From Chloroflexia bacterium (GTDB taxonomy: Bacteria > Chloroflexota > Chloroflexia > Thermomicrobiales > JALYUS01): a DNA stretch of 10,612 nucleotides. Positions 241 to 1,407 of this stretch are shown piece by piece. How positions within the stretch are numbered: the stretch's first letter is position 1; each line of letters starts with the position of its first letter. A program made the position numbers and the translations under genes. The notes under the pieces are model-generated. The model was not told the DNA's origin. It made no database searches and saw nothing but the letters and a program-made list of their open reading frames with translations. Location of the stretch: contig JAICIL010000147.1 of NCBI GenBank assembly GCA_025924435.1, positions 1 to 10,612 on the forward strand. The letters are read 5' to 3'.

Positions 241-295
241 GCCAAGAGAGTGTATGACGACACACGAATGTACGACTTATCGAAGAGGTGCGGCG

Positions 296-559
296 GTGAA
301 GGAGTTCGAGAGCAGAATGACCCAGAAGGGGCAGGTCACGATCCCGGCGGAGAGCTGTCAACCACTCGGTTTGAAGCCGAGGGATAAGGTGCGCTTTGTC
401 GCGGACGTGGATGGGGTGAAGGTGCAACCGGCGGCATCGAAATTGGCGAAGCATTTTGGTTCGGTCAAGCCGATCAATCGGCCCGAGGATTGGACAGCGG
501 TGCGGCGAGAGTTCGAGGAACTCGTGGCGGAAGATGCGATGACGCGCGGGCAGCAATAG
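296..559 (+). CDS. AbrB/MazE/VapB-family antitoxin
   Basis: An 87-aa SpoVT-AbrB swapped-hairpin protein. Residues 7-17 (RMTQKGQVTIP) and LGLKPRDKVRF with the following strand are the hallmark of this DNA-binding antitoxin fold. The C-terminal half (roughly residues 50-80) is acidic and would wrap the toxin. I choose GTG 296 because AGAGG (284-288) lies 7 bases upstream and the protein then opens directly with the conserved ESRMTQKGQVTIP block. An in-frame ATG at 254 would add 14 residues that do not resemble the family and has a poorly spaced AGAGAG. The gene ends 4 bases before the toxin start at 564, the usual antitoxin-first operon. Oddity: the position normally read as EIR(K/Q) is E-S-C-Q, two single-base changes from I-R, suggesting relaxed selection alongside the broken toxin. 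In the family it neutralises the toxin and autoregulates the operon. Confidence 0.8.
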   Translation: MKEFESRMTQKGQVTIPAESCQPLGLKPRDKVRFVADVDGVKVQPAASKLAKHFGSVKPINRPEDWTAVRREFEELVAEDAMTRGQQ

Positions 560-972: not shown

Positions 973-1407
973 TCATCCGCGTGATCCGCCCGGAGCGGGT
1001 TCGGCGACGACCTGAACGGCAACGGTGGTCGCGACCGCGACCGTGCGATAGAGCGGTCAGCCATCCTTGTAGCGCCCGACCAGCCATTCCGCCTGCTCCT
1101 CGCTCACGCCGACGAGCCGGAAGCGCAGATCAATCCGCGCGAACGACGTGGGCGACTGCCGGTCGCGCAGCCCCTCGATGGTCACGTCCATGCTGTGCAG
1201 GGGAATGTTCGCGCCCTGGGCGGCCCGCTCGACCAGCGTGACGCCGCACGACGAGACACCGGCGAGGAAGGCGTCGCCCGATGTGATCTCCTCGCCAATT
1301 GTCGGGCTGTCAATGATGAAGTGGTGATTGCGCACCGTGTTCATGCTGCGGCCGACGGTGCCGCTGCTGTAGGAGCGCACCGTATTGACGAGATACTGCT
1401 CGCTCAT
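973..1407 (-). CDS. OsmC-family protein, probable selenoprotein (Sec at TGA 1059-1057)
   Basis: An OsmC/Ohr-like protein read from ATG 1407, preceded by GAGGGGGTGGAGC. A conventional reading stops at TGA 1059-1057 after 116 residues (ending GRYKDG), too short for the family and without its second cysteine. Translating the TGA as selenocysteine gives U-PLYRTVAVATTVAVQVV and 27 further codons to TGA 975-973, 144 aa in all, the normal family length. OsmC proteins have a first Cys in a helix (here C54 in GVSSCGVTLVE) and a second in a CPxY/S-type motif before the last beta strand. U117-P-L-Y falls exactly on that motif, and the strand with alternating V/A follows it. The extension keeps high G/C at third codon positions (20 of 27) and ends next to the convergent VapC remnant. 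A SECIS-like hairpin follows the TGA. In the family these proteins reduce organic hydroperoxides or handle reactive thiols in the cytoplasm. Alternatives: a C-to-A mutation of TGC, or a truncated protein. Decoding needs selA/B/C/D elsewhere in the genome. Confidence 0.8.
1021..1059 (-). promoter_or_regulatory. putative bacterial SECIS element of the OsmC gene
   Basis: On the minus strand, directly after TGA 1059-1057, GGTCGC (1042-1037) pairs perfectly with GCGACC (1032-1027) around the tetraloop GGTC (1036-1033). An alternative outer pairing, ACGGT (1044-1040) with ACCGT (1026-1022), could lengthen the stem if three bases bulge. The loop begins 21 bases after the A of TGA. From general knowledge, bacterial SECIS hairpins sit immediately 3' of the UGA, inside the coding region, with a G in the first two positions of the apical loop. 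The E. coli fdhF element carries a GGUC core between GC pairs at nearly the same distance. SelB charged with Sec-tRNA would bind this loop. The match is good, but short GC stems are common in DNA of this composition, so the protein evidence carries most of the weight. Confidence 0.65.

Follow-up and report, generated by a model that had tools for sequence, protein, structure and literature searches.

The question raised by this locus is whether a UGA codon lying inside an OsmC-family gene is read as selenocysteine (Sec) and, if so, what such a residue would do in the active site. The window, by which we mean the whole stretch of 10,612 nucleotides that was analysed, contains on its minus strand a frame that starts at ATG 1407, runs through ...GRYKDG to a TGA at 1059-1057 (reached after 116 codons), goes on for 27 codons as PLYRTVAVATTVAVQVVAEPAPGGSRG and ends at the TGA at 975-973. 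A preliminary description of this DNA had laid out the same frame, from the GRYKDG before the first TGA to the stop 27 codons later, and it was confirmed on the sequence. From sequence comparison we conclude that this is very probably the gene of an OsmC-family selenoprotein, with the UGA at 1059-1057 recoded as Sec. Its two principal features are as follows.

973..1407, minus strand: predicted OsmC-family selenoprotein gene, ATG 1407, end TGA 975-973; 144 residues with Sec at 117; identified through its homologs
1057..1059, minus strand: predicted Sec codon (U117), an in-frame TGA aligned with the second redox Cys; based on the conserved TGA and on the aligned solved Ohr/OsmC chains

The product and the place of its second redox residue

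Membership in the OsmC/Ohr family is indicated by both profile score and fold. The read-through product scores 41.4 bits against the Pfam OsmC model (PF02566), over the gathering cut-off of 27.5, and the PDB lists obtained with its AlphaFold model (pLDDT 84.5) are headed by OsmC/Ohr entries, with modest Foldseek TM-scores of 0.43-0.64 and an identity of 12-21% to the 50 solved chains among the Foldseek matches listed. No NCBIfam model matched the product at E 1e-3, and PHROGs gave no match.

In the profile alignment to solved chains, the U column falls on the CP cysteine of the Ohr/OsmC proteins, and the first Cys of the pair is kept throughout the Sec forms, which agrees with the preliminary placement of Sec at the second, resolving Cys.

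1246..1248, minus strand: codon of C54, the first (peroxidatic) Cys of the OsmC/Ohr pair; Cys in 73/73 Sec rows and in 18/18 Cys rows with a residue there

According to the accessible part of the report on XfOhr from Xylella, Cys61 is the peroxidatic residue (Cp) of that enzyme and Cys125 the resolving one (Cr) (PMC5962072), and stepping from the family alignment the U column would correspond to Cys125. An Arg (R20) is found at position 20 in 70 of 72 Sec rows and an acidic residue at position 45 in 72 of 73; these two probably correspond to the residues by which Ohr enzymes activate Cp, and residue 45 may match Glu51 of Ohr, with a spacing that is off by one. The peroxidatic Cys and the activating Arg by which OsmC/Ohr character was judged were both found.

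Given this arrangement, the product is a probable peroxide-detoxifying enzyme, that is, a thiol peroxidase of the OsmC/Ohr fold. Comparison shows that the UGA is kept as a sense codon together with a SECIS hairpin 15-30 nt downstream; following the known pathway, SelB with Sec-tRNA-Sec would bind this hairpin and Sec would be placed at position 117. If the chemistry follows that of Ohr, R20 and the acidic residue 45 would activate C54, which would reduce an organic or lipid hydroperoxide and be converted to a sulfenic acid, Sec117 would attack this sulfenic acid to give an Se-S bond, and a lipoylated or other thiol reductant would open that bond again. Placing Sec here could provide a faster resolving step and a guard against over-oxidation.

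The role of resolver is thus the one that Sec117 probably plays, in our judgement. The roles could also be swapped, with Sec117 attacking the peroxide and C54 resolving, which would still make the protein a selenoprotein; a selenolate is the stronger nucleophile, and with C54 in all 73 Sec rows both partners are there, but R20 and the acidic residue 45, the likely activators of Cp, are still conserved in the Sec forms, and we consider the exchange rather unlikely.

Conservation of the in-frame UGA

Relatives were gathered by a protein search (n = 254) and by a profile search (n = 1971 among 7997 scored candidates), and the two together list 175 clusters. Among those listed, 151 stop at the residue just before the UGA column, 19 have Cys at this column followed by PLY, and 5 end elsewhere. 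It had been anticipated that ordinary gene callers would truncate the gene, and the 151 listed database proteins indeed lack the second active-site residue only because the gene caller stopped at UGA. At the DNA level, TGA is present at the homologous codon in 31 of 31 genome loci, whose record titles name Thermomicrobiales, Sphaerobacteraceae, other Chloroflexi, Rokuibacteriota, Methylomirabilota and ANGP1. Relatives from several uncultured bacterial groups appear to share the recoding.

A survey of 538 whole genomes from three bacterial groups returned 81 family matches, 77 of them with an in-frame TGA and 4 without. The family was found in 28 of 400 genomes of the first group (24 matches with TGA and 4 with Cys), in 39 of 95 of the second (40 matches, all with in-frame TGA) and in 13 of 43 of the third (13 matches with TGA), a distribution that does not fit the earlier characterization of the class as rare. 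The codon itself was seen in a fetched locus for 74 of the 81 matches (70 TGA, 4 Cys), and counts of the codon column and of the hairpin cover these and not the remaining seven (six from the second group and one from the third). Over all 78 distinct sites, the codon at this column is TGA in 74, TGC in 3 and TGT in 1. In-frame UGA is thereby conserved among homologs, with Cys at the same column in others; when relatives are inspected for C or U at this column, as the preliminary description had proposed, TGA dominates and Cys appears in the 19 listed clusters and the 4 genome loci.

These counts bear on the reading in which translation really ends at the UGA, leaving a functional protein of 116 residues with decayed sequence behind it. 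Databases do carry the 116-residue form, and this piece still passes the OsmC gathering score, if narrowly (29.5 against 27.5 bits). The distinct sites, however, contain neither TAA nor TAG at the codon, the 27-residue tail is conserved behind the UGA in every UGA locus read except the frameshifted L030 and contains the final helix and strand of the model, and the RNA hairpin described below covaries, all of which makes a true stop highly improbable.

The exceptional locus L030, a Rokuibacteriota copy from the second group, keeps the UGA and loses both frame and hairpin right behind it (L030:6337-6378); besides the in-frame TGA it has a TAA further on. This suggests a decayed gene or an assembly error.

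The hairpin behind the UGA and the selenocysteine machinery

Within the coding sequence, 15-30 nt downstream of the UGA, lies a hairpin of the form GGTCGC-N4-GCGACC, a feature on which the preliminary description is silent.

1027..1042, minus strand: predicted bacterial SECIS hairpin, arms 1042-1037 and 1032-1027, loop 1036-1033 (GGTC), the loop ends forming a covarying seventh pair

All seven pairs (six plus the loop-closing one) form in 73 of the 74 distinct UGA genes, the exception being L030, whereas the full hairpin is present in none of the four Cys genes with DNA, in which 3 or 4 of the 7 pairs form. Covariation was assessed on an alignment of 62 UGA rows (58 distinct; alignment A3), outside which stand L030 (frameshifted), L065 (missed by a pattern) and L098-L107 (added later), all of them within the counts of 74 and 4. 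In this alignment 100% of cells pair, four of the seven pairs have changed on both sides, and all 62 rows have G as the second base of the loop. The covariation score was reached by 0 of 500 shuffles and the count of further pair types by 6 of 500, and in slid versions of the hairpin pairing falls to 22-66%, numbers that are not probabilities, since neither the shuffle nor the slid control keeps both column make-up and relatedness.

The bacterial SECIS model, as given in the accessible text of a 2026 review, asks for an upper stem of 4-16 bp located 16-37 nt from the UGA, a minimum free energy of at most -7.5, and a loop of 3-9 nt that has G in its first two positions and is in most cases closed by an N1-N2 pair (PMC13188914). 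The window hairpin agrees with each of these clauses as printed there, having 6 bp and the N1-N2 pair, a GGUC loop, a spacing of 20 nt and -11.1 kcal/mol in a short stretch. The outcome of free folding depends on the stretch that is folded. When 53 nt are taken (3 nt, the UGA and 47 nt), another structure is preferred and its stability is no better than that of shuffles (z 0.67); in two shorter stretches that start beyond the 11 or 12 nt next to the UGA, the hairpin is the best fold, with z -1.86 (matched by 8 of 200 shuffles) in one and z -3.35 in the other. The ribosome would presumably cover those 11-12 nt directly after the UGA. The SECIS of E. coli fdhF likewise has a short stem just behind the UGA and a GGUC loop, and probably differs from the window hairpin in stem sequence and spacing. 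Rfam gave nothing over threshold on the window. One of the Cys genes, L057, folds better than its own shuffles, yet not as the SECIS hairpin.

Alternatively, there might be no SECIS, and the hairpin would simply follow from the conservation of the peptide TVAVAT in genomes of high GC content. In GC-rich DNA this peptide tends to be written in palindromic codons, free folding of the 53-nt stretch shows nothing unusual, and the Cys clusters P0125 and P0100 retain much of the peptide, at the protein level only. Codon choice speaks against it, as third positions deviate from the genes' own usage and paired third positions covary. In a codon table of 73 Sec genes (L030 left out), Thr+5 is ACG in 57 of 57 and Thr+10 is ACC in 70 of 70, compared with 48% ACG and 46% ACC upstream in the same genes, and Val+6 is GTG in 0 of 72, compared with 40% upstream; these genes are related sequences, so the counts give no probability. 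The hairpin is, in addition, missing in all four Cys genes with DNA. That the hairpin is a mere by-product of the peptide is very unlikely.

Genes for Sec insertion were sought in the 31 genomes that carry the first loci. In these drafts, SelA was over the cut-off in 29, SelB in 29, SelD in 30 and tRNA-Sec in 24, leaving 7 of the 31 drafts with no tRNA-Sec over the cut-off; ARAGORN assigned the anticodon TCA in both tRNA loci that were fetched (n = 2). With all four components found among relatives, and with the conserved UGA, Cys in homologs and the covarying SECIS, the initial assessment of the gene as a probable selenoprotein is strengthened. Co-occurrence alone proves little, since SelA is common in the first group (321 of 400 genomes) and in the second (83 of 95): in the first it is found in 28 of 28 genomes with the OsmC family against the 321 of 400 overall, and in the second there is no enrichment, with SelA in 34 of 39 genomes with the family and in 49 of 56 without it.

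In 30 of the 31 genomes (G001-G031) an in-frame UGA is also found within a SelD gene, which points to a probable minimum of two selenoproteins in these lineages; in G029 only a UGA-bearing SelD was found. One draft genome, G013 (loci L013 and L096), contains two full SelA, two SelB and two SelD genes (one with UGA), together with two strong tRNA-Sec matches and one just over the cut-off, which suggests that either this genome has two Sec machineries or the bin is mixed.

A sequencing error, or a reassignment of UGA in this lineage (e.g., to Trp or Cys), is very improbable: TGA is one base away from TGC, TGT and TGG, but it occurs at the same column in separate assemblies from several groups, and UGA is the stop codon of osmC (975-973) and also, at 1581-1579, of the DoxX gene just upstream, so it is still a stop in the DNA of the window.

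Relation to described OsmC proteins, evolution and surroundings

An OsmC-like selenoprotein was reported in the Sargasso Sea and GOS surveys with the motif UxxT, from 3 and 5 marine sequences (PMC1088965, PMC2398784), and in the accessible part of a 2026 table the only OsmC entry is OsmC-like UxxT, other Sec positions being counted there as separate subfamilies (PMC13188914). As far as the accessible text of these sources goes, the present proteins share with the published form the OsmC domain (PF02566), a single Sec and a bacterial SECIS, which is in print for that form. They differ from it in having UPLY, with Sec at the second Cys, and in occurring in records of Chloroflexota, Rokubacteria/Methylomirabilota and ANGP1 instead of marine sequences. 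At the third position after Sec, 71 of 74 rows have Y, and the others W, F or, once, a stop. The preliminary statement that surveys list OsmC-like selenoproteins was right, but the printed motif, UxxT, occurs in 0 of 74 Sec rows here, and the proteins lie outside the published subfamily. The first Cys reads CxxT in 49 of 73 Sec rows, so the Sec of the published UxxT form may sit at the first Cys.

With the Ohr/OsmC Cys peroxidases the family shares the fold, the Cp cysteine, a second redox position in the CP motif and the conserved Arg, judging from the accessible part of the XfOhr report (PMC5962072); the second redox residue is Sec here and Cys in enzymes such as XfOhr. The literature searched, mostly without subscription papers or any supplements, yielded no UxxY or resolving-Cys OsmC selenoprotein, and given that the printed OsmC entry is UxxT only, we regard this as a new variant within the known kind of OsmC selenoprotein. 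It is apparently a large, uncatalogued subfamily with Sec at the resolving position, and Sec at the resolving step would be, as far as the literature searched shows, an arrangement that has not been published for OsmC/Ohr. A selenoprotein subfamily found across three groups is thereby added to a printed entry that rests on few marine sequences, along with a covarying SECIS that retains its stem in 73 of 74 genes. Near relatives with Cys offer a natural test of why the resolving residue, rather than the attacking one, would be Sec.

A weakly resolved, unrooted tree of 92 rows and 138 columns, in which 14 of the 19 Cys clusters were used, changes the Sec/Cys label at least 8 times, only one change being forced by starred branches. 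The Cys forms lie dispersed between Sec forms, a pattern in keeping with Cys having repeatedly taken the place of Sec, the root not being fixed. Whether Sec is the ruling and possibly ancestral state of the clade, in an old family that spans at least three bacterial phyla, uses selenium for resolving and has given rise to Cys forms several times, is to us an evenly balanced matter; the same reading would explain why the family was overlooked, its proteins being stored cut at about 116 residues. The Cys clusters P0125 and P0100 retain most of the SECIS-type peptide (RTVAGAT and RTAAVAT) and are placed among Sec rows in the tree; they are possible recent changes from Sec to Cys.

Around osmC, no partner gene was recognised in the 31 loci. 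DoxX was not found near osmC in any of them, and relatives of other window genes were near it in few (the TPP enzyme in 4, LLM in 2 and SigX5 in 1). When SigX5 of the window was compared with five genomes, it matched at 33-39% in 4 of 5 and had no match in the fifth, so none of them is close to the window. ORF clusters recur in up to 14 loci, the two largest being frames that overlap osmC on the other strand. A plasmid search with the OsmC protein gave no match, and among viral contigs 50 stretches fit a pattern, none of them a relative of the OsmC selenoprotein. Elsewhere in the window, a further reading was noted.

254-559, plus strand: MazE/AbrB-like antitoxin reading, 24.6 bits, just below the Pfam cut-off of 24.7

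Behind it lie two overlapping plus-strand frames, 647-829 and 693-980; neither has a Pfam match at 0.1, and together they may resemble a PIN-type toxin split by a frameshift.
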